Positions 7,353-44,069 of a stretch of DNA of 45,211 nt are shown here, in pieces (within the stretch, counting starts at the first letter, position 1; every line of letters starts with the position of its first letter). Below the pieces are notes generated by a model. It was not told the DNA's origin, searched no databases, and worked only from the letters and a program-made list of their open reading frames with translations. Source of the DNA: a virus; IMG/VR virus record IMGVR_UViG_3300046721_000221, positions 1 to 45,211 of that record. One strand, written 5' to 3'. The position numbers were made by a program, and so were the translations under genes.

Positions 7353-8306
7353 GTGAGTCCCATCGCATACAATAACTTGACCAGTCGGACGGATGCTGCG
7401 GCGCTCATTCCCGAGGAAGTCTCGACGGAAATGATGCGCCGTGCGACGGACCAGTCCGCCGTGCTGCAAATGTTCCGGCACGTTCCGGTCGGACGCGCCC
7501 AGGTGCGTTTCCCGGTGCTGTCGGCGCTTCCGGTCGCCTACTGGGTTTCCGGTGATACCGGCCTGAAGCAGACCAGTGAAGTCAACTGGACGAACAAGTA
7601 TCTCAACATCGAAGAGATCGCGGTCATCGTTCCCGTTCCGGACAATGTTGTCGCCGACGTCGACGTCAATATTTGGGACGAAATGGAACCGTACGTCCGT
7701 GAGGCGTTCGGCCGCACCCTCGACGCTGCCGTGTTCTTCGGAACAAACGCGCCGTCGTCCTTTCCGACGTACATTCAGTCGGCCGTTTCCGGCGCGGCCA
7801 ACACGGTCACCGCGAACGCCGCGGCAACCGCGGGTGCCGGCCTTGGCGACCTCGACGGGGCGTACGGCAAGTTGGACGCCGACGGGTTCGACGCGTCCGG
7901 CATCGTCGCCGCAACCTCGTGGCGGGCACGCCTGCGCTCCTCGCGGGACTCCACCGGCCAGAAGATCGACCCGACTCGCATCGGCGGTGACCTGAAGACG
8001 GTCGACGGCCTGCCGATCGCCTACCCGATGCGCGGGCTTTTCCCGACCGGCTCGGGTGGCGTGTATGCGTTCGTCGGCGACTGGAGCGAGTTCGTCGTGG
8101 GTGTCCGGTCGGACATCTCGATCAAGATCCTCGACCAGGCGGTCATTCAGGACAACACAGGGACAATCATCTATAACCTCGCACAGCAGGACATGACGGC
8201 CGTAAGGCTGACATTCCGGGTGGGGTGGCAGGTGTCGAACCTGATCAACTACGACCAGCCGACCGAAGCGAACCGGTACCCGGTCGCGTCGATCCTCATC
8301 CCGTAA
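7353..8306 (+). CDS. Major capsid protein (HK97 fold)
   Basis: 317 residues. Conserved features of the actinophage HK97-fold capsid family are visible: the N-terminal LIPEEVSTEM, the 'PVAYWVSG' segment, the 'EIAVIVPVPDNVVADVD' strand and the terminal PTEANRYPVA. GTG start preceded by AAGAAGG at good spacing. No separate protease gene is present nearby and no long delta domain is encoded, consistent with the separate scaffold gene. Confidence 0.93.
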   Translation: MSPIAYNNLTSRTDAAALIPEEVSTEMMRRATDQSAVLQMFRHVPVGRAQVRFPVLSALPVAYWVSGDTGLKQTSEVNWTNKYLNIEEIAVIVPVPDNVVADVDVNIWDEMEPYVREAFGRTLDAAVFFGTNAPSSFPTYIQSAVSGAANTVTANAAATAGAGLGDLDGAYGKLDADGFDASGIVAATSWRARLRSSRDSTGQKIDPTRIGGDLKTVDGLPIAYPMRGLFPTGSGGVYAFVGDWSEFVVGVRSDISIKILDQAVIQDNTGTIIYNLAQQDMTAVRLTFRVGWQVSNLINYDQPTEANRYPVASILIP

Positions 8307-8318
8307 GGAGCCAGACTG

Positions 8319-8726
8319 ATGACCGCACCTTTCGGCACGTCGCGACAGGTAGTCGTCGGCCCGCAGGCAACCGCGGGATCCGACCTCAATACGAACATCT
8401 GGGTGGTGCCCACCGCGTCCACGGTCACGGCCGTCACCTACGCCCCGGTGACCGCGATCACCGGGGCCAACACGAACACCCGCAGCGTCAGCCTCGTGAA
8501 CAAGGCGCTCGACGGCACCGGTACGACGGTGGTCGCGACGATCCAGTACAACTCCGGTGTCAACGCGGCCGCGTCCGACGAGAACACCGTCACCCTCAGC
8601 GGCACGCCGGCAAACCTCGTGCTGGCCGCCGGCTCGGTGCTGCAGTGGCAGTCCACGCACATCGGTACCGGCATCGCCGATCCGGGCGGGCTGGTAAACG
8701 TCACGACCGCGGCGACGTACGCGTAA
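8319..8726 (+). CDS. Putative capsid decoration / head fibre protein
   Basis: 135 residues, mostly Thr, Ala, Val and Gly in alternating patterns suggesting an all-beta fold, without charged helices. The ATG is 12 bases after the capsid stop and preceded by AAGGAG, so it should be translated strongly. High expression potential and position suggest a decoration protein on the capsid surface, but I recognise no specific family. A generic structural label is safer. Confidence 0.75.
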   Translation: MTAPFGTSRQVVVGPQATAGSDLNTNIWVVPTASTVTAVTYAPVTAITGANTNTRSVSLVNKALDGTGTTVVATIQYNSGVNAAASDENTVTLSGTPANLVLAAGSVLQWQSTHIGTGIADPGGLVNVTTAATYA

Positions 8727-8736
8727 GGAGATCGCA

Positions 8737-8970
8737 ATGGCCACCGAGAAGGACAAGGCACCCCCCCCGGACGCCGAGGTTCAGAAGCGCGTCGACGCCG
8801 AGCTTGAGCAGGGGTTCAGGGGCATCGAGGTCGACCCGACGCCGAATGAGAACTATTCGGTCGAGGGTGTGACCAGCGGGAAGCCGACGCCGGAGACGGA
8901 CGACGGCGCGGCGGAGAAGGCCCGCAAGCATGCCCTCGGTGTCGAGCGCGGCGACGCCGGCGTCATCTGA
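8737..8970 (+). CDS. Small acidic hypothetical protein after the capsid genes
   Basis: 77 residues, strongly charged (many Glu, Asp and Lys), probably disordered at the N-terminus (KDKAPPPDAEVQKR). Preceded by AAGGAG. Co-transcribed with the capsid gene and followed by a large hairpin, so it closes this transcription segment. Function unknown. A six-residue C run near its start (codons 8-9) is a spot where a sequencing error would break the frame. Confidence 0.7.
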   Translation: MATEKDKAPPPDAEVQKRVDAELEQGFRGIEVDPTPNENYSVEGVTSGKPTPETDDGAAEKARKHALGVERGDAGVI

Positions 8971-8985
8971 GGCACGACGCAAAGA

Positions 8986-9053
8986 GAACCGGTGCCGGGG
9001 CCTTCCGTGAGAGGCCTTGGAGAAACTTTCCACCCGGCCCGGGGCACCGGTTC
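8986..9053 (+). terminator. Long hairpin after the capsid operon
   Basis: Eleven perfectly paired bases (GAACCGGTGCC at 8986-8996 with GGCACCGGTTC at 9043-9053), extended by further GC pairs, enclose an inner GGCC/GGCC stem. No U tract follows. It sits just upstream of the connector gene. It could attenuate read-through from the highly expressed capsid genes, protect the 3' end, or be an RNA processing site. Confidence 0.55.
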
Positions 9054-9073
9054 GCGTATCACGCTAACAGAAC

Positions 9074-9685
9074 ATGGGGGCACCGGTCGTGAGCGACATG
9101 CTGGTGACCCTCGAAGAACTCGCCTCCTACCTGCAGGAGGATGTCGACACCGCCACGGCCACCTTGGCGATCGAAATCGCGACCGGGCTTGTCCAGGCGG
9201 CAACGTGTCAGCGTTTGATCTACGTGGCTGACGACCCGTTCGTGCTGTACGTCGACGAGTACGACACAAGCCCTTGGCTCGAGCTGCCGGAGCTCCCGGT
9301 GACCGCGTTCAGCTCAATCCAGGTCGGCGCGACCGCAGTCAGCGACGTCACCGCGGACCTGTCACGTGGCAGGCTGTACCGGCGTACCGGCTGGCGGTCG
9401 GTGGCGGTCTATCCGTGGAATCAGCCGAGCACCGTGTCTGGTGTTTACAGTCACGGCTATCAGGTCGGCGACCGGAAGCTGCAGTTGGCCCGGTCGGTGA
9501 CTCTGGTCATTGCGGCGGCGGCGTACGGCAATCCGATCGCGGCGACCCGCGAGCAGATCGACGACTACGCAATCCAGTACACGGAGACGGCCACCGCCCG
9601 GCTTGATGCGATGCCGTCGACGGTGGCCGCGTTGCGCCGGGTGTACGGCCGTGGGCCGCGTTCGGCGCTGCTGCTCAGGGGTTAG
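9074..9685 (+). CDS. Head-tail connector (HK97 gp6-like adaptor)
   Basis: 203 residues. The N-terminus MLVTLEELASYLQ followed by 'ATATLAIEIATGLVQAATCQ' is the pattern of the gp6/gp15 adaptor family, which stacks on the portal ring after packaging. The C-terminal half ends in a helical arm (STVAALRRVYGRG). Three starts are possible: ATG 9074, GTG 9089 and ATG 9098. The last begins exactly at the conserved MLVTLEEL and may be the true one. Confidence 0.8.
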   Translation: MGAPVVSDMLVTLEELASYLQEDVDTATATLAIEIATGLVQAATCQRLIYVADDPFVLYVDEYDTSPWLELPELPVTAFSSIQVGATAVSDVTADLSRGRLYRRTGWRSVAVYPWNQPSTVSGVYSHGYQVGDRKLQLARSVTLVIAAAAYGNPIAATREQIDDYAIQYTETATARLDAMPSTVAALRRVYGRGPRSALLLRG

Positions 9686-29613: not shown

Positions 29614-31578
29614 TCACGGCCGCGAACCCGCCGCCGCCGGCATCCGCTCACGCTGCACAACACGCCACACGCCACGCTCGCCCGGACGCGGCTCACGCAA
29701 CACGCCCTCGTCGCACAGCTGCCGCAACGCGTTACGCATCCACGACGACGACAGCCCCGTCTGCGCCAACACATCGGCCAAATCAGACATCTCCACGTGC
29801 CCGGCGCCCGCGGACATCAGTGCGAACACGTGCGAACGCAATAAGCCGAGCGCCTCGGCCGGCAGCATCTTCTTCCGGTCGTCGCCGAACGGAATGCGCG
29901 GCATCCCCGGCGGGACCACGATCGGTTCCGACGGGTCCACATCGTCCGGCGGATCGTCCGGGTCGACACCCGGCGGAACACCCTCGTCATCGTCGTCTTC
30001 CGCGTCGTCGAGGTCAGGCTCCTGCCCGCCACGCGGGGGCGTGTACGGCTCGACCTGCGTGGGCTCCTCACGGCCGGCGTCGTTCCAGCCGAGCACCGCG
30101 GCGACATCCCGCTCACGGTCCGCGTCGTGCTGAATGAACGACCGGCACGGCGCCGACCAGGACTCCTCGTCACGCCCGGACCACAGCAGATAGAAGTATC
30201 CGGGCTTGCCGTTCTTCCACTTCCACGGCGCCGCACCCGCGGCCGCGACCTCATCGGGCAGGGCGCCCTCAGCGTCGCCGTCGTTCTGCACGCCGAGCAC
30301 GCACCACGTGGTCATGTTCGACCGGGCCGAGGTGGGCAGCCGGTCGTACGTGGCCCGCTGCAGCTCGAGCACGACGCACATGCCGACCGACCGCACCGCC
30401 TCAGACAGATCCACGATGTTTGATTCGCGGATGAACGAGGCCGCCTCGAAGATCACATACGTTTCGAACTGGATACCGCAGCCGCGTTCCCACTGTTTCA
30501 GTCCGCGCGCCCCGAGCTGCTTCGACCGGTCGGCGATCCGACGCTCGAGATCCTCAAGGAAGTCAAGCGCCTCCGCACTGTCGTCGATCGCCCGGGTCGC
30601 AGCCCGCTTCACCCATCCCGGCAACTGCCCGGACTTCCGGCAGTCGATCACATACGTGTCGTTGTCCGGCCTGGTCACGGCCTCCTTCACGAACCGCAAC
30701 AGCAGTTCCGTCTTCCCACTACCGGACATGCCGACGACGCCCATCACACCGACCGCGTTGCGGTGCACGGCCGGGTCACCCGGCAAAATGATCTGCGCGG
30801 GCTCCCCGGAATCCGCCAGACCCAGCACGATCGGGTCGGCGATCGACAGGCCCGGCTCGATACCAGGGTCGGGGATCGCGTCCCGCAGTTGATCGCGGGG
30901 GACGACATGGACCGTCCCGGACCGCTCCGAATCCGGGTCGCCGATCGTGCGCACCGAGGTAGCGCGTACATCCAGAAGCGACGCCACCTCACGTTTAGCG
31001 GCCTGCACTTCCTCGAACGAGCGGCCCGGCGGCATCTCGATCGCCGCAGTGACTTTCGCGCCGTCGACCACCGGCCGGCCGAACCGCACCCCCTTCAACT
31101 GCTTCACCGCATCACCGAGCTCGGCAAGTTCACCATTCAGGACTTGTCCGTGGCTGCCGTCGTCGCCGCGGGCCTGCCGCATGATCCGGTACAGGGCGCA
31201 GTCGAACGAGATGACCAGCGCGAAGAGCAGCCAAAACCCGAACTTTGGTTTCGTGAACGGGCCCTCCAAGATCGCCGGAATGCACCAGGCGATCGCCAAC
31301 CCGGCGTTGATGGTCGCCATCACTTGCATGACGACACCCCGCGGACGGGACAGAAAAAACGTGAAGAGCAGAATGCCGACCGACGCGAACGCGACTGCCA
31401 CCCCGGTCCAGCCCGCCGAGGCCGCGGATGTGCCGTACGCACGGTGCACACCCCACGTGGCGGGCAGCGCCACCAGGCAAAACAGCGGCGCGACCAGATA
31501 CGGCCACAACGGGATGCGCACCGTGTGCACGCTGGCGTAGCCGTCGTTCTGCGGCCGCATGCTTGGTTTCTTGGCCAC
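29614..31578 (-). CDS. FtsK/TraB-like DNA translocase
   Basis: 654 residues, GTG start one base after the upstream stop. Four N-terminal membrane helices are likely (about residues 24-50, 56-77, 86-104, 114-131). FtsK/HerA-type motor with Walker A GMSGSGKT (283-290) and a Walker B-like YVIFEA (374-379) where the usual Asp is Phe. The late motif 'LELQRATYDRLPTSARSNMTTW' fits the FtsK family. An acidic Asp/Pro linker joins a C-terminal winged helix (about 575-645), as in the TraB proteins that move plasmid DNA between actinobacterial cells. No relaxase is seen. The role in a phage is inferred. Confidence 0.85.
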   Translation of the reverse strand: MAKKPSMRPQNDGYASVHTVRIPLWPYLVAPLFCLVALPATWGVHRAYGTSAASAGWTGVAVAFASVGILLFTFFLSRPRGVVMQVMATINAGLAIAWCIPAILEGPFTKPKFGFWLLFALVISFDCALYRIMRQARGDDGSHGQVLNGELAELGDAVKQLKGVRFGRPVVDGAKVTAAIEMPPGRSFEEVQAAKREVASLLDVRATSVRTIGDPDSERSGTVHVVPRDQLRDAIPDPGIEPGLSIADPIVLGLADSGEPAQIILPGDPAVHRNAVGVMGVVGMSGSGKTELLLRFVKEAVTRPDNDTYVIDCRKSGQLPGWVKRAATRAIDDSAEALDFLEDLERRIADRSKQLGARGLKQWERGCGIQFETYVIFEAASFIRESNIVDLSEAVRSVGMCVVLELQRATYDRLPTSARSNMTTWCVLGVQNDGDAEGALPDEVAAAGAAPWKWKNGKPGYFYLLWSGRDEESWSAPCRSFIQHDADRERDVAAVLGWNDAGREEPTQVEPYTPPRGGQEPDLDDAEDDDDEGVPPGVDPDDPPDDVDPSEPIVVPPGMPRIPFGDDRKKMLPAEALGLLRSHVFALMSAGAGHVEMSDLADVLAQTGLSSSWMRNALRQLCDEGVLREPRPGERGVWRVVQRERMPAAAGSRP

Positions 31579-31579
31579 G

Positions 31580-31948
31580 TCAGGACGCCTTGAACTTGAA
31601 CGTCGACCCGGCCGGCCGGTAGCCGGCCGCCTCGAGCTCAGGCATGAACGCGGCCTCGAATTTGTTCCGCGCCGTGATGATGTACCGCGACGCCACGACC
31701 AGCGCCTCAGCCGACTGTGCGATCGGCTTGGACACCATGTGCGCCCGGTACCGCGACGACACGCCGGCAACGAGGATGCCGCGGGAAACTTTCCTCAACT
31801 GCGCGTCGATCTCGGCGGACACGATGCCGAGCTCGAGCGAACCCGCGTGCAAGATGCGGCGCCCCTGCTCGAACCATTCAATTAGCTCGATATTGTTGTT
31901 GATGGGTGCCTGTGGGGTGAGGAAACCGTGGCGATCTTGATCTGCCAT
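31580..31948 (-). CDS. Transfer-operon protein, unknown function
   Basis: 122 residues. Helical; contains 'NNIELIEWFEQGRRIL' and ends 'FEAAFMPELEAAGYRPAGS', a type I associate with small proteins beside traB-like genes in actinobacterial integrative elements. One base separates its stop from the translocase start, so tight coupling is likely. Confidence 0.68.
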   Translation of the reverse strand: MADQDRHGFLTPQAPINNNIELIEWFEQGRRILHAGSLELGIVSAEIDAQLRKVSRGILVAGVSSRYRAHMVSKPIAQSAEALVVASRYIITARNKFEAAFMPELEAAGYRPAGSTFKFKAS

Positions 31949-35521: not shown

Positions 35522-36447
35522 CCGGCCTCAGCGACCAGGAATTCGCGGAAATGCTCGCCGTTGCGCACCTGCGAGCGGCCGGCATGACCCCGGAAGTCAT
35601 CACAGCACCACCAAAAGCGCCCGCCACGAGAGGTGGCACGGCCTCCCGTGGCGGGCCCGAAACCCCGCCGTCGACACTCGCCGAAATGCGCGACGCCCTG
35701 CAGCGTTTCGAAAACAGCCGGCCGCGAACCGTACAGAAAACACTCGGCCCGTCCGAACTCGGCACCCCCTGCGACCGGCAGATAGCCTTGAAACTGGCCG
35801 GCGTGCAATGCCGCGACCGCGGGTTGCCGTGGGCGCCGATGTGCGGCACCGCTGTGCACGAGCTCATGGAAAAAGTGCTCCGCGCCGAAAACGAGCGCCT
35901 CGGCCGGGAACGGTGGATCATCGAGCAGCAGGTTCAGCTGGATGACGAGCTGTCCGGGCACGGTGACGCGTTCGATGTCGATTGGGGGATGGTCGTTGAC
36001 TGGAAATACACCGGCACCACCGCCCGGCGAAAAGCAGCCCGTAAGACCGTGCCCAATTCTGAACTTGTGTCGATGGAGTACCGGACGCAAGCACACCTAT
36101 ATGGGCTCGGCCATCGGAACGCGGGCCGCGTCGTGCGCTTTGTACGACTCGTTTTGCTGGCCCGTTCACACGACTACTCTGAATCGGTCGAATGGACAGA
36201 GGCGTACAACGAGCAGCTAGCCGTCGACGCCATGATGCGCTTCTACGCCATCCGCGACCGGGTCGTCAACATGGGCGCCGCGCGGGAACCCGAGCGGCTC
36301 ATCGCCGTTGAAGCCGCACCCGGCGAGGCCTGCAAATGGTGCCCGTTCCAGCGCGTCACACCACCCGGCGGGCTGCACGTCGACGCCACCGGATGTGCGG
36401 GTAACACCGAAGCGCACGCCAACGTAGAACTCTTTTTCGGGAGATGA
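35518..36447 (+). CDS. Cas4/RecB-like exonuclease with Fe-S cysteines
   Basis: 309 residues. PD-(D/E)XK core: GTAVHELMEKVL with H114, GHGDAFDVDWGMVVDWKY with D150, D161 and K163, then QAHLYGLG with Q191 and Y195. Four cysteines at C85, C272, C275 and C293 match the Cas4/AddB-type Fe-S cluster. Such enzymes resect DNA ends for recombination or replication. No cas genes or CRISPR array lie nearby, so it is a stand-alone phage nuclease. Confidence 0.88.
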   Translation: MTGLSDQEFAEMLAVAHLRAAGMTPEVITAPPKAPATRGGTASRGGPETPPSTLAEMRDALQRFENSRPRTVQKTLGPSELGTPCDRQIALKLAGVQCRDRGLPWAPMCGTAVHELMEKVLRAENERLGRERWIIEQQVQLDDELSGHGDAFDVDWGMVVDWKYTGTTARRKAARKTVPNSELVSMEYRTQAHLYGLGHRNAGRVVRFVRLVLLARSHDYSESVEWTEAYNEQLAVDAMMRFYAIRDRVVNMGAAREPERLIAVEAAPGEACKWCPFQRVTPPGGLHVDATGCAGNTEAHANVELFFGR

Positions 36448-36821
36448 CCTTGAAGGTAGCTGTCATTGCTGTAGCCGCACTGCTATCCCTGGGCGCGTGT
36501 TCCAGTGACGCCGACGTCGCATCAAAGAATCTGTCCAAGGATGCCGACAACTTCAAAATCAACCGGCGGGTCGTCTTCTACAACGGCATCACCGGCGACT
36601 ACATGCTGTCCATTGAGGGCTTCTGTTCCGTCGACCCGGCCGACGCGACAAACCTCACCGTCACCTGCAAAGTCGGCGACGGCTACAAGAAACACTTCCT
36701 CGGCCGCTCCGACAACGTTACATGGTTCGCCGAGCAGCTCGACGCGCAAAACGTCGGCACCGACCACTATCGGGTCATCTTCAAGCCGTCGGTCATCGTG
36801 CCGGACATCGAAGGTCGCTAG
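36444..36821 (+). CDS. Small lipoprotein, beta-sandwich type
   Basis: 125 residues, overlapping the nuclease stop. Signal peptide with lipobox LGAC, C19. After the signal come 'NLSKDADNFKINRRVVFYNGITGDYML' and 'CKVGDGYKKHFLGRSDNVTWFAEQL', a pattern I know from actinophage beta-sandwich lipoproteins. A lipoprotein made early and displayed on the host membrane suggests a role in superinfection exclusion, but that is inference. Confidence 0.8.
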   Translation: MTLKVAVIAVAALLSLGACSSDADVASKNLSKDADNFKINRRVVFYNGITGDYMLSIEGFCSVDPADATNLTVTCKVGDGYKKHFLGRSDNVTWFAEQLDAQNVGTDHYRVIFKPSVIVPDIEGR

Positions 36822-37965: not shown

Positions 37966-37982
37966 CAGCGGACAAAAAGATT

Positions 37983-38011
37983 GGGTGCCCGGCCTCGTCC
38001 GCCGGACACCC
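37983..38011 (+). terminator. Hairpin between HTH and primase genes
   Basis: GGGTGCCCGGC (37983-37993) pairs with GCCGGACACCC (38001-38011), one mismatch. No U tract. Possible attenuator upstream of the primase gene. Confidence 0.5.
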
Positions 38012-38076
38012 GATATCAACCACAACGCTCGCACCATCCTACCCGAGGGCAGGCCTGGTGCGCGAGGGGAACCCTC

Positions 38077-39054
38077 ATGCCAACTGACGGCATCAATACC
38101 CGCATGCGCGACGAGGCACTCGCCTACGCCTCCCGCGGCCTTCTCGTCTTCCCGCTCTGGTGGATCGTCGACGGCGCGTGCGCGTGCCGCGACAAGGCCG
38201 CCTGCGGCAACCGGCCCGGCAAACACCCCTGCATCCCGGGCGGCGTCAACCGGGCCAGCAACGACGAACGCCAGGTAGAACGCTGGTGGACGTGGCGCCC
38301 GCACGCCAACATCGGTATGCCGATGGGCGCCAACAACCTCGCCGCGGTCGACGTCGACGCCGGCCACGGCGGGTACGAAACCCTCGCCATCCTCGACGCC
38401 TATTGCCTCGAGCGCGGTGTCGACCCGGCCGCCACCCGCGCCATCGGCACCGGCGGCGGTGGCGAACACCGCATCTACTGGCAACCCGCCGGCGGCATCC
38501 CCTCCAAGCGGCGCGCGTTCGGCGACGACGCGCCCGGCGTCGACACCCGCGGCCGCGGCGGCTACCTCGTCGCCCCACCCTCCCTACACGCCTCCGGTCG
38601 CCGCTACGAGGTCATCGACAACGGGCACACCATCGCACCGTGGCCGGCACCGCTCACCGCCCTGCTCGAGCAGGCGCCCCGCGACGAAACCGGCCTACCC
38701 GAAGGCGTCATCGCCTGCGGGCCACCCGGCGCACAGCTCAGCGACCGCGGGCGGGGCGCAGTCTGGGCATTCGCAGCCCTGCTCGAGGAGTCGAAGAAGA
38801 TCGCCGATTGGCCGCTCGCCGAAGGCTCCGGCAAAAACGACGCCCTCAACGCGTCCGCCTACAAGCTCGGCCGCCGCGTCGGCGCCGGATACATCGACGA
38901 GGCATCGTGCGAGCAGGCGCTCTACCAGGCCGCCTCACGCTGGATCGGCCACGGCCACACCGACCGCAGCATCCGCGCCACCATCCGATCCGGGCTCACC
39001 GCCGGCATCCGCAAACCCCACCCCGGGCCTGCCACGAGGGGGGCGGCGTCGTGA
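38077..39054 (+). CDS. Prim-Pol primase (bifunctional DNA primase/polymerase)
   Basis: 325 residues from ATG 38077. Prim-Pol fold: a Cys-rich insertion (CACRDKAACGNRPGKHPC) then GGVN, AAVDVDAGHGG with D92 and D94, GGGGEHRIYW with H131, and VDTRGRGGYLVAPPS with D156. These build the nucleotidyl transfer site of the archaeo-eukaryotic primase family. It primes, and may extend, DNA at the phage or plasmid-like origin together with the SF3 helicase four genes on. C-terminal 100 residues are helical. No family A or B polymerase is in the window. Confidence 0.9.
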   Translation: MPTDGINTRMRDEALAYASRGLLVFPLWWIVDGACACRDKAACGNRPGKHPCIPGGVNRASNDERQVERWWTWRPHANIGMPMGANNLAAVDVDAGHGGYETLAILDAYCLERGVDPAATRAIGTGGGGEHRIYWQPAGGIPSKRRAFGDDAPGVDTRGRGGYLVAPPSLHASGRRYEVIDNGHTIAPWPAPLTALLEQAPRDETGLPEGVIACGPPGAQLSDRGRGAVWAFAALLEESKKIADWPLAEGSGKNDALNASAYKLGRRVGAGYIDEASCEQALYQAASRWIGHGHTDRSIRATIRSGLTAGIRKPHPGPATRGAAS

Positions 39055-40329: not shown

Positions 40330-40616
40330 CAGGAACACCCGGGACACAGACTGATCTTGAGAGCTACCTGGACTCGCTGCCATGGCGCCACACGGCAGCC
40401 GGAGGCCGCATGCATTGTCTGCCGTGGGAGCTCCCGCAAGCGCGGTGCGGCGTATCGCCGGCTTGGCACAACGCCGACGGGCGCCGGGAGGCGGGGCCGG
40501 ACGCGGAGGGCTGGCTCGGCGCCGGGCGGCACGCTGCTCCTACGGGTCGACCCGACAAGCCTCGGTGCCGCCGCTGCGTTGCACTGATCACCGCTGACCG
40601 GGGTGCTGCTGCATGA
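40326..40616 (+). CDS. Hypothetical early protein
   Basis: 96 residues from ATG 40326. Starts TGTPGTQTDLESYLDSLPW, ends with CRRC near residue 84, so a metal site with earlier Cys is possible. Fills the space up to the helicase start with a four-base overlap. Not recognised. Confidence 0.6.
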   Translation: MTGTPGTQTDLESYLDSLPWRHTAAGGRMHCLPWELPQARCGVSPAWHNADGRREAGPDAEGWLGAGRHAAPTGRPDKPRCRRCVALITADRGAAA

Positions 40617-42133
40617 CCGAACCCGCCCCGGAAACCGGGCTAGCCGCGCGGATCAACGCCATCGCCCTCGCCGGCGACACCGACCCGCTCTACGGCATGC
40701 CCGAACCCGGCCCCGAAATCGAACTCCCGCCCCCGACGGCCCCGCTGGCCGCCGGGCGGGAAATCGTGCGCCGGGCCCGGCTCGCCGGGGCACTGCCCTA
40801 CCGGTACTGGCGCGGCGACTTCTACCAGCACACCGGCACCCACTACGAAATCGTCGACAAGACGATCATCAACAAGTGGCTGTACCTGACCACCGAAAAC
40901 GCCTACTTCACGGTGATGAAAAAGGGCGTCAACGAGGGCCGCGCCTGGAACCCCGACAGCGTCAAGATCGGAAAACTGCGGCACGCCCTCTCCGACGGGC
41001 TCCTCACCCACGACGGCGAAGAAGAACGCTGCATCGCCATGCAAAACGGCGTATACAACATCAAAACCGACCGGATGGACCCGCACAGCGACCGCCGCTT
41101 CAACCTCACCGTCCTACCCTTCGCCTACGACCCGGCCGCCGGCTGCCCCCGCTGGCTCGCGTTCCTCGACGAAGTCCTCCCCGGCGACCGCGAAGCGCAA
41201 GACTTCCTCGCCGAATGGTTCGGCTACGTGCTCTCCGGCCGCACCGACCAGCAGAAAATGCTGTCCCTCGTCGGCCACAAACGCTCCGGCAAAGGAACCG
41301 TCGCCCGCATCTTGGAGGCACTCCTCGGCCCCGCCGGCGTCACCAGCCCCACCATCAACCAGCTAGGTGGCAACTTCGGCGAACAATCCCTCATCGGCAA
41401 AAAACTGGCCGTCATGTCCGACGTGCGCTGGAACAACGGCAACGCCGTCGCCGAAGCCGTCCCCGTCCTCCTCGCCATCGTCGGCGAAGACTCCCGCGAC
41501 GTCGCCCGCAAAAACCGCGACAACTGGCACGGCTACCTCGGCGTCCGCTTCATGATGATGTCCAACGAGACACCCAACTTCCGCGACGCCTCCGGCGCCC
41601 TCGCCGGCCGCATGCTGCAAGTCCATTTTTCGCAGAGCTTCTACGGCCGGGAAGACACCGGACTGACCGACGCGCTACGCCAGGAACTCCCCGGGATCTT
41701 CAACTGGGCCGTGGCAGGCCTCAAACGCTTCGCGCAACGCGGCCGTCTCGTGCCACCCGCCAGCGGTGAAGCCCTCGCCGACGAAGTACGAAGGCTAGCC
41801 TCCCCTTACCAAGCGTTCATCGAAGACTTCTGCGAAATCGACGAGCAGGCCGAAACCGCCGTCCCCGAGCTCCTCGCCGCGTACGGACAGTGGGCCCGAC
41901 GGGAAGGCCGCACCCAAGACCAGCAGACCACCTCCAGCCTGTCCCGTGGCCTGCGGACCACCGAGCAGCGAATAGCCGTCGCCGGCCGCCGCACCCTGCC
42001 CAACGGGCAGAAAGTCACCGTGCTACGCGGGCTGAAACTCGCAGCCCCCGCGGCGCCCGTCTGGCTGGCCCAGGATCAGGCTGCGGACAGGCAGCTCTAC
42101 CAGCAAGGCGCGTTCGAAGTTGACGACGACTGA
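40613..42133 (+). CDS. SF3 helicase / D5-P4 type primase-helicase
   Basis: 506 residues. The D5 N-like region (about 40-200) with 'FYQHTGTHYEIVD' precedes an SF3 helicase: Walker A GHKRSGKGT (221-229), Walker B KLAVMSDVR with D270, and the late 'FMMMSNETPNF' and 'GALAGRMLQVHF' motifs. C-terminal winged region. Unwinds DNA at the origin in viruses and plasmids that lack a DnaB-type helicase. Situated right before the repeat-rich origin candidate. Confidence 0.9.
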   Translation: MTEPAPETGLAARINAIALAGDTDPLYGMPEPGPEIELPPPTAPLAAGREIVRRARLAGALPYRYWRGDFYQHTGTHYEIVDKTIINKWLYLTTENAYFTVMKKGVNEGRAWNPDSVKIGKLRHALSDGLLTHDGEEERCIAMQNGVYNIKTDRMDPHSDRRFNLTVLPFAYDPAAGCPRWLAFLDEVLPGDREAQDFLAEWFGYVLSGRTDQQKMLSLVGHKRSGKGTVARILEALLGPAGVTSPTINQLGGNFGEQSLIGKKLAVMSDVRWNNGNAVAEAVPVLLAIVGEDSRDVARKNRDNWHGYLGVRFMMMSNETPNFRDASGALAGRMLQVHFSQSFYGREDTGLTDALRQELPGIFNWAVAGLKRFAQRGRLVPPASGEALADEVRRLASPYQAFIEDFCEIDEQAETAVPELLAAYGQWARREGRTQDQQTTSSLSRGLRTTEQRIAVAGRRTLPNGQKVTVLRGLKLAAPAAPVWLAQDQAADRQLYQQGAFEVDDD

Positions 42134-42148
42134 GGCACGCTGACCCGC

Positions 42149-42475
42149 ATGACCTACAAACCAGCCGCGCCCTGCATGGACTGCAACACCGACACCGCAC
42201 CCTGCGAAAACAGGCAAGGCTGCCCTAACAAACGCGGCTGCCGGCACAACGGCAGCGGACACTGGGAGTGGTACATGGTGTGGCCCGCCATCTGGGCGTG
42301 CGCCGTCGGCCCAGACGCCCCCGGCTACCTGTGCATCCGCTGCCTAGAGCGGCGCCTCGGCCGGCCGCTCACCGGCGACGACTTCACCCTCGCCCCCGTC
42401 AACCTGCCCAGCCGCCTCGACTCCCCGCAGCTCACCGCCGCGAAGCAGCGGTGGAGCGCGTTCGACGACGACTAG
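42149..42475 (+). CDS. Small Cys-rich protein before the repeat block
   Basis: 108 residues. Several pairs: CMDC, CENRQGC, CIRC. Zinc-ribbon composition with Trp-rich middle (GHWEWYMVWPAIWAC). It closes the rightward replication operon. Repeats begin 12 bases after its stop. Might bind DNA at those repeats, but no evidence beyond location. Confidence 0.65.
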   Translation: MTYKPAAPCMDCNTDTAPCENRQGCPNKRGCRHNGSGHWEWYMVWPAIWACAVGPDAPGYLCIRCLERRLGRPLTGDDFTLAPVNLPSRLDSPQLTAAKQRWSAFDDD

Positions 42476-42486
42476 CGACACCCGCT

Positions 42487-42938
42487 GGACAGGTAAACAC
42501 GCTCGGACAGGTAAGCGGACAGGTAACTGATTACCTGTCCGCTTCTGTTTGCCCAGGTCAGGGCACGTGCGCGGACAGGTAGACAGGCAGGACAGGAAAT
42601 TTCGGCCATACCTCTTTTTATAAAAGTTACTAAGGGGACCCTAACTACTTTCAAACTCAGACTCTCAGTTAGGAAATTACCTGTCTTACCTGTCCAATAA
42701 GGGGTCTGACCTGCGAAGACAGGAAAATTTTGCCTGTCCGATTACCTGTCCATTACCTGTCCTCTGGACAGGTAATTACCTGTCCGCGGCCGGCCGGACC
42801 ACGCTCGAGGGGCGCAGGGCCGCGCCTCGTGGCAGGCGCAGTAGGCCGCAAGGGGCCGGATTACCTGTCCGCAGCCGGGTTTCCTGTCCGCGGACAGGAA
42901 TTACCTGTCTTACCTGTCCGCGAGGCCACTACCTGTCC
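42487..42938. repeat. ACCTGTCC iteron block, origin candidate
   Basis: About nineteen copies of TTACCTGTCC or its complement GGACAGGTAA (including GGACAGGAA-type variants) in 452 bp, on both strands and often back to back. At 42766-42785 two copies form the perfect palindrome GGACAGGTAATTACCTGTCC. A separate A+T-rich stretch at 42600-42680 (CTCTTTTTATAAAAGTTAC) lacks copies and may be a melting region. No gene is seen here. Next to the helicase gene, an origin is the leading reading. A cis transfer site for the translocase is the alternative. Confidence 0.85.
42766..42785. other. Perfect 20-bp palindrome inside the iteron block
   Basis: GGACAGGTAATTACCTGTCC reads the same on both strands. 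It joins two repeat units head to head with no spacer, and is likely the best binding site for a dimeric protein or a cruciform-forming element. Confidence 0.85.
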
Positions 42939-42990: not shown

Positions 42991-43053
42991 ATGATCGACG
43001 TCGACGACACGCGACCCCCCGGCGTGCACGACGACGGGGGAGACGTCTGGTGA
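42991..43053 (+). CDS. Possible 20-residue leader peptide
   Basis: ATG 42991 opens MIDVDDTRPPGVHDDGGDVW and ends in a TGA overlapping the nuclease GTG. It could couple translation of the nuclease. Weak case; no clear ribosome-binding site. Confidence 0.25.
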   Translation: MIDVDDTRPPGVHDDGGDVW

Positions 43054-43403
43054 GTCGCAGCAAGCAAAAGGGCACACGGTGGGAGTCGGCCATCGTCGAC
43101 TACCTCATCGGGCACGGCTTCCTGTACGCCGAACGCCGCACGCTGAGCGGCGCCCAGGACCGCGGCGACATCGCCGGCGTACCCGGATGGGTGCTCGAGG
43201 CCAAAAACTGTTCAGCGGCGTCCCTGGGCGCCTGGATGGACGAAGCCACGATCGAGCAGGCGAACGCGGGCGCCGCCTACTCCGCTGTCTGGCACCACCG
43301 CCGCGGGAAGAGTTCGCCGGCCGACGGGTTCGTCACCATGACCGGGGCGGCGTTCGTTCGGTTGATCCGGCAGGCCGGCTACGGCACGCCGGAGGAGGAG
43401 TAG
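43050..43403 (+). CDS. Holliday-junction-type nuclease (Hjc/VRR-like)
   Basis: 117 residues, GTG start. GTRWESAIVDYL with E12, DRGDIAGVPGWVLEAKN with D40, E50 and K52: the minimal E-D-ExK nuclease of archaeal Hjc and phage resolvase-like proteins. It could cut branched DNA made during replication or recombination near the origin. A single small domain with no other motif. Confidence 0.82.
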   Translation: MSRSKQKGTRWESAIVDYLIGHGFLYAERRTLSGAQDRGDIAGVPGWVLEAKNCSAASLGAWMDEATIEQANAGAAYSAVWHHRRGKSSPADGFVTMTGAAFVRLIRQAGYGTPEEE

Positions 43404-43406
43404 ACC

Positions 43407-44069
43407 GTGGCCGCGCCGCAAACCGCCCTCGTTGACGACGTCACCGAAATGCTCATCCTCTGGCCCCACCTGGCCGCGGCCCTCGAGCGCGACCAAGGCG
43501 CCATCAGCGAAGAGAAGGTGTCCGGCGACCCGGGCACCTTCGGGTTACCTGTCAACGCCGACGTGCTCGAAGCGCTACGCGCCCTCGGCGAAGAGGTGCC
43601 CGCTCTTGCCCGGTGGGCGGCCGGCGTCGTCGCCGAACCTGCGGCGGCCCGCCCCGTCCCCGACCACCTGCGCCACCTCCCCCGCTTCCACGAGCGGATG
43701 TTGGTCACCGCGGCAGTCCAAGAGGCCGCCCAGCTCGCCGCGGCCGTGCACAGCCTCGTGCGGCAGGTGAAGCTGGCCGTCGGGTTGCGCACCGTCGACA
43801 GGCGCCTCGGCCAGTTCTGCCCGCTGCATGACGACCCGTTCCGCGAGCTCATCGCCCCCGGCGACGAGGGCGTGTTGCGGTACCGCCGCCTCGACCGGGA
43901 CGGGCAGCCGATCGCGCCCGCCGTCGAATGGCGCCGCTCCGACTGTGCCCTGTGCCGGCACTGTGGCGCCGCCTGGGCGCCCAGCCAATACTTGCTGCTG
44001 GGCAAGCTTCTGCGCGAGGCCGATACGCGCAGGCTCGCCGTGGAGATCGAGGCACGGGGGGCCGCATGA
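43407..44069 (+). CDS. Zinc-ribbon protein with a TTA codon
   Basis: 220 residues, GTG start three bases after the nuclease stop. Helical N-terminal part (VQEAAQLAAAVHSLVRQVKLAV) and a C-terminal ribbon: CPLH near residue 137 then CALCRHC near 185. L47 is coded by TTA in TTACCTGTC, which is also one iteron-like unit lying inside the gene. Role unknown. Overlaps the next gene. Confidence 0.7.
   Translation: MAAPQTALVDDVTEMLILWPHLAAALERDQGAISEEKVSGDPGTFGLPVNADVLEALRALGEEVPALARWAAGVVAEPAAARPVPDHLRHLPRFHERMLVTAAVQEAAQLAAAVHSLVRQVKLAVGLRTVDRRLGQFCPLHDDPFRELIAPGDEGVLRYRRLDRDGQPIAPAVEWRRSDCALCRHCGAAWAPSQYLLLGKLLREADTRRLAVEIEARGAA

Follow-up and report, generated by a model that had tools for sequence, protein, structure and literature searches.

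In the SaPI Rep/ori and SCCmec Cch2 systems (Ubeda 2007, as cited in PMC7581432), a self-loading SF3 helicase is combined with short iterons that lie directly downstream of the helicase gene and are recognized by the C-terminal domain of the protein, and two hexamers are proposed. The alpha protein of phage P4 belongs to the same helicase family (TIGR01613, "P4 family"), carries a Toprim-type primase and binds its origin repeats through a winged helix (PMC4234260). In Streptococcus phage Sfi21, the annotated origin (AF115103, 34487-34784, 302 bp) is a non-coding stretch straight after a D5/P4-family primase-helicase gene, with convergent pairs of 9-bp period (TTTAGTTACTTAGTTA / TAACTAAGTAACTAAA) around an A+T-rich centre. 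Herein we compare with these systems a locus in a 45,211-base stretch of DNA (the window), which is a whole IMG/VR virus record and carries terminase, portal and tail genes. The array, its position, its symmetry and the co-variation of its repeat with the helicase C-terminus, all taken from sequence comparison, indicate that positions 42487-42938 are very probably a phage replication origin of the SaPI/P4/Sfi21 type, whose repeats the neighbouring D5/P4-family SF3 helicase would read through its C-terminal winged helix. The array belongs to a known type of origin, of which an additional conserved element, here called the C-box, makes it a variant, and the surprise lies mostly in this box and in clean natural swaps of helicase tail and repeat. 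Compared with SaPI and SCCmec, the window differs in host group, in iteron and in having far more copies than the three of Cch2, and its primase is encoded by a separate gene while C-boxes flank the core. The separate primase gene is of AEP type, unlike the Toprim-type primase of P4 alpha, whereas Sfi21 departs from the window in its repeat (GTAACTAA), in the very low G+C content of its centre and in that no C-box was seen there.

The initial annotation had described about nineteen copies of a 10-bp unit on both strands of one non-coding stretch, and our count agreed closely with this. Between 42476 and 43049 the unit TTACCTGTCC occurs 11 times exactly, 18 times with at most one mismatch and 20 times with at most two, compared with zero, one and 29 occurrences, respectively, in the remainder of the window. 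The 8-mer ACCTGTCC is found 14 times in the window, 13 of them within the array, where dinucleotide shuffles of the whole window gave a mean of 1.46 and a maximum of 4, and no cluster of more than four 8-mer copies per 400 bp was found elsewhere in the window. The copies are split about equally between the strands (12 plus and 9 minus in the seed count), and the stretch is non-coding by GC-frame analysis, with flanking genes that end at 42475 and begin at 43050. The array begins 354 bp past the helicase stop, with one small gene in between. A DnaA-box origin was rejected, in line with the initial annotation, since TTATCCACA-like boxes do not compose the array and all 20 sites fit TTACCTGTCC at up to two mismatches. 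GC skew tracks gene direction and is therefore uninformative on the origin here. The sole copy outside the array with at most one mismatch is a lone near-exact iteron, TTACCTGTCA, at 43545-43554 inside the gene 43407-44069.

Internally, the array is symmetric (Table 1). Two inner iteron groups in opposite orientation flank an A+T-richer region, as in the SaPI-type Rep/ori module, and inverted copies of the C-box (GTTTNCGCAGGTCAG) stand outside these groups, at 12 nt on the left and 11 nt on the right. The left inner group was assigned by eye, because its degenerate middle copy caused the automatic pair scan to miss it, and by its sequence it appears to be the equivalent of the left tandem pair in relatives. 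The perfect 20-bp palindrome that had been reported from the sequence was recovered as two abutting inverted iterons. The A+T-rich segment said to adjoin the repeats is real, at 62% A+T in a genome of ~67% G+C, but it is mild and lies inside the array, between the repeat groups.

Table 1 Coordinates of the features discussed, in order of position in the window
Feature	Position	Strand	Details
TraB-like translocase	29614..31770	-	NCBIfam plasmid_TraB 338 bits, below cut-off 800; phrog_24831
AEP-type primase/polymerase gene	37981..39054	+	phrog_5852 E 1.2e-22; phrog_1156
SF3 helicase, D5_N / P4 family, proposed initiator	40613..42133	+	TIGR01613, Pfam D5_N, DUF5906
Helicase C-terminal winged helix, proposed repeat reader	41831..42040	+	residues 407-476, AlphaFold2
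Iteron array	42487..42938	both strands	20 copies of TTACCTGTCC
Left C-box	42546..42560	+	TGTTTGCCCAGGTCA
Left inner iteron group	42573..42599	+	GGACAGGTAGACAGGCAGGACAGGAAA, ~9-bp period, partly degenerate
A+T-richer spacer, proposed unwinding element	42600..42676		77 bp, 62% A+T
Right inner iteron pair	42677..42695	-	9-bp period, inverted relative to left group
Right C-box	42706..42720	-	inverted, GTCTTCGCAGGTCAG on - strand
Perfect 20-bp palindrome	42766..42785	.	GGACAGGTAATTACCTGTCC, two abutting inverted iterons
RusA-like nuclease	43050..43403	+	phrog_244 E 1e-25

The genes on either side of the array were as the initial annotation had proposed, namely an SF3 helicase before it and a Holliday-type nuclease, here RusA-like, after it. 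The helicase exceeded the cut-offs of all three models (173 against 108.7 for TIGR01613, 37.6 against 22.4 for D5_N and 49.3 against 27.6 for DUF5906), and its predicted fold best matched the SaPI5 primase-helicase 7OLA (E 6e-17). AlphaFold2 placed a winged helix at its C-terminus (strand 407-416, helices 417-430 and 440-450, wing strands 455-461 and 467-476), with a mean pLDDT of 84 for the helicase and values mostly of 74-92 in the winged helix. The primase shares homology with the sequence ahead of the helicase domain in L160, L161, L165, L171 and L268; the two are a single protein in many relatives (open frames of ~750-900 aa) and separate genes here. The order helicase, non-coding gap and resolvase also occurs in the mycobacteriophages Chris and MalagasyRose and in a Listeria phage. 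Further upstream, a recombination directionality factor gene at 36444-36821 (phrog_478, E 1.4e-51) suggests a temperate phage.

Both the repeat and the helicase were used as queries. At the DNA level the array showed no direct similarity to any known phage, and an exact-motif search for TTACCTGTCC arrays returned 75 viral and 72 genome loci, nearly all of which were dismissed as chance, minisatellites or coding repeats, with a helicase alongside only in L012. Among the viral contigs, L009, L023, L052, L063 and L046 hold close GGACAGGTAA pairs that apparently are repeats within coding sequence and may be chance or unrelated in-gene repeats. The helicase-only query against viral contigs found no relative, while an alignment-based query yielded 80 loci with helicase relatives, the closest being ~50% identical. 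In ~20 non-redundant relatives, the locus has its densest short-repeat array immediately past the helicase gene and on both strands, with seed scores above those of shuffled controls (seed score against shuffle maximum: 12.5/4.0 in L217, 12.0/5.5 in L180, 11.5/5.0 in L167 and 10.5/4.0 in L184). The motif differs among these arrays: ACCCTGCACA is shared by L164, L167, L169 and L170, while CCGGCACA is found in L158, TGTCCCGG in L161, GTAGTCAC in L173, TGTAGCAGC in L174, TGGCACAGGT in L184, CCCGTGCAC in L180 and AGGTCCGCA in L217. The initial annotation had counted absence of the repeats from all close relatives against its proposal; the exact motif is indeed absent, but an equivalent array with a different motif stands at the same place, which is what turnover of origin and initiator predicts.

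The geometry is shared as well. In most of the relatives examined, an inner tandem iteron pair with copies 9-10 bp apart lies on each side of an A+T-richer spacer, the two pairs being mutually inverted (convergent), with spacers of 68-145 bp between the automatically found pairs. In mycobacteriophage Chris, 10 sites of GAACAGAT occupy the 412-bp gap that separates the primase/helicase gene from that of the RusA-like resolvase, and the tandem pairs on its two sides face opposite ways. The corresponding gaps of MalagasyRose, a Listeria phage and Javan628 contain arrays that are weaker or different. In the stretch examined, an array after the helicase gene was not seen in about half of the more distant relatives, nor in the Streptomyces phages Wentworth, Dryad and Yara (~37% identity). 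Judged from its coordinates, the array of one side clade (L200, L203, L207, L218) seems to lie just upstream of the primase-helicase gene and not downstream. The iteron origin tied to an SF3 helicase that the initial annotation had put forward was supported by a position and a geometry common to ~20 relatives, and by a motif that tracks the helicase C-terminus, as described below.

Multi-copy inverted operators exist in phages, and an array between two gene blocks and ahead of a nuclease gene might instead act in operator or promoter control, or as a partition centromere, with a repressor or a ParB-like protein bound to it. We consider this improbable, given that the array follows the helicase stop in many divergent genomes, that symmetric tandem pairs about an A+T-rich spacer fit origin opening, and that the co-variation is with the helicase.

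This co-variation was clearest in a low-G+C family (L012, L239, L240, L243, L244, L247, L249, L250), to which L012 led through an 8-mer shared with the window. The L012 array lies directly behind a helicase of the same D5/P4 family; because L012 was found by its motif, the identity of the motif was selected and only the position beside the helicase is independent. L244 and L239, at 96.8% identity over the available part of the ATPase core, fall to 62.5% across the final ~50 residues and carry the repeats GGACAAGT and GGAAGGGT, respectively, while L244 and L249 are 78.9% identical in the core and 87.5% in the C-terminus and have an identical repeat. More broadly, L244, L249 and L012 have the tail KIRSNGSWY and the repeat GGACAAGT/GGACAGGT in common with cores only 79-82% identical, L239 and L240 combine the tail KITSNGVHY with the repeat GGAAGGGT/GGAAGGTT, and L243, L247 and L250 carry GGGATAGT. 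The partial rank correlation between motif and C-terminus, given the core, was 0.62 (p 0.0015) in this family and 0.31 (p 0.0095) in the family of the window, while that between motif and core, given the C-terminus, was not significant in either; across all 28 loci both partial correlations were small (C-terminus 0.15, core 0.13). Within the low-G+C family, the repeat motif therefore appears to be tied to the helicase tail of ~50 residues rather than to the ATPase core, and a correlation that persists with the core held constant supports the C-terminal winged helix as the putative reader of the repeat.

The same data bear on whether the array could be an origin whose iterons are read by another protein that recruits the helicase, such as the Cys-rich 108-residue protein suggested in the initial annotation or a different DNA-binding protein of the phage. 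Two pWTY27 proteins, RepA and RepB, do divide iteron binding and primase functions between them (PMC3583192), but the Cys-rich gene had no homologue in the 17 relatives examined, the repeat changes coincide with changes in the last ~50 helicase residues while the core is nearly constant, and in SaPI Rep and Cch2 it is the C-terminal domain that binds (PMC7581432), so that a separate reader is very unlikely.

By analogy with SaPI Rep and SCCmec Cch2, from which self-loading as two rings, spacer opening and two forks are derived, the helicase would bind the 10-bp iterons through its C-terminal winged helix, and the tandem pairs, about one helical turn apart and opposed across the 77-bp A+T-richer spacer, would nucleate two helicase rings. 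The outer iterons may raise the local concentration or regulate, ATP-driven remodelling would open the spacer and two forks would depart in opposite directions, while the separately encoded AEP primase presumably makes the primers. One more replication factor, possibly from the host, would probably be recruited or positioned by the inverted C-boxes that lie outside the pairs. An origin and initiator defined in this way would serve a whole clade of mostly uncultured, actinobacteria-associated phages, and the natural series of matched helicase tails and repeats could be used for decoding DNA recognition by SF3 initiators. Equivalent systems exist in an easily handled host, namely the mycobacteriophages Chris and MalagasyRose on M. 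smegmatis, which makes the proposal testable.

The TraB-like motor noted in the initial annotation does match the plasmid_TraB model, although it falls under the model cut-off (Table 1), and this plasmid-type protein is encoded alongside phage terminase, portal and tail genes. It had no tblastn match in 50,697 phage records, and no homologue among 20 array-bearing or related records, several of which are fragments and which were searched without a positive control. That the array is instead the clt/TRS recognition locus of this translocase, for cell-to-cell DNA transfer, draws on the plasmid_TraB match and on TraB proteins reading repeated 8-bp motifs via a C-terminal winged helix (pSVH1, cited in PMC3583192), but it is highly improbable in view of the ~11 kb between array and traB-like gene (in pWTY27 the clt and the tra gene overlap; PMC3583192), the equivalent arrays in relatives where no TraB homologue was found and a motif that tracks the helicase C-terminus. 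TraB could use the same repeats in this genome as well.

We finally turn to the C-box. Within 7.0 kb of arrays the pattern TTTNNNCAG[CG]TCA was counted 16 times, at 13 of 20 loci, and not once in 254 kb of flanking sequence; since it had been chosen after viewing those array loci, the box was sought elsewhere. In 60 actinobacterial genomes GTTTNCGCAGGTCAG was found 129 times and its reversed control not at all, with six of the copies lying no more than ~330 bp before dnaN. The 50 actinobacterial dnaA-dnaN regions (L346-L375 and L382-L401) were then scanned for a DnaA-like box with CAG[CG]TCA after it, a module pattern written once all 50 were in hand. This module is present in 32 regions on the strand opposite to dnaN and in one on the same strand, with zero matches for reversed controls, and was carried by 14 of the 20 regions fetched after the element was first noticed. 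In 32/50 genomes the chromosomal GTTTNCGCAGGTCAG element stands beside a TAG-trio-like sequence, with ~14 nt between it and a tandem pair of DnaA-like boxes. Plus-strand CAGGTCA upstream of dnaN was tried as a second oriC box and rejected as mostly dnaA coding sequence. The actinobacterial chromosomal oriC (dnaA-dnaN) resembles the phage arrays in having the same C-box near a tandem pair of initiator boxes, but differs in that these are DnaA boxes, that there is one C-box and not an inverted pair, and that its orientation relative to the initiator pair is unlike that in most phages.

A pattern search for the C-box among viruses gave 39 loci, some in iteron arrays with other neighbouring proteins and some without iterons, and the box is thus not specific to this helicase. 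In L278, L283, L293, L294 and L307, C-boxes lie within other iteron arrays with no D5/P4-family helicase detected nearby (the neighbour in L307 is a different AAA+-type protein, 7729-9441, minus strand), which makes the box common to several origin types. Two or three C-boxes stand close together with no obvious matching iteron array in L277, L289 and L305. A tentative reading, which we hold to be possible rather than probable, is that a host replication factor, one that acts beside the DnaA boxes at actinobacterial oriC, would load or dock at the C-box, and that many actinobacterial phages took the box into otherwise self-sufficient iteron origins, which would then be part SaPI-type helicase origin and part host oriC module. 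No mention of the C-box sequence strings in connection with replication was found in the open-access papers searched, although subscription papers could hold one, and PMC8287927, on broadly conserved origin unwinding, makes no mention of the motif. Should the box prove to be a host-factor site, it would point to a part of actinobacterial oriC that is apparently undescribed in the open-access papers searched. A hairpin as a general rule for the C-box was discarded, its partner arm not being conserved in chromosomes. Other chromosomal copies lie away from oriC, and several of these are near tRNA ends or resemble terminator hairpins, from which the box may also have a role in transcription.
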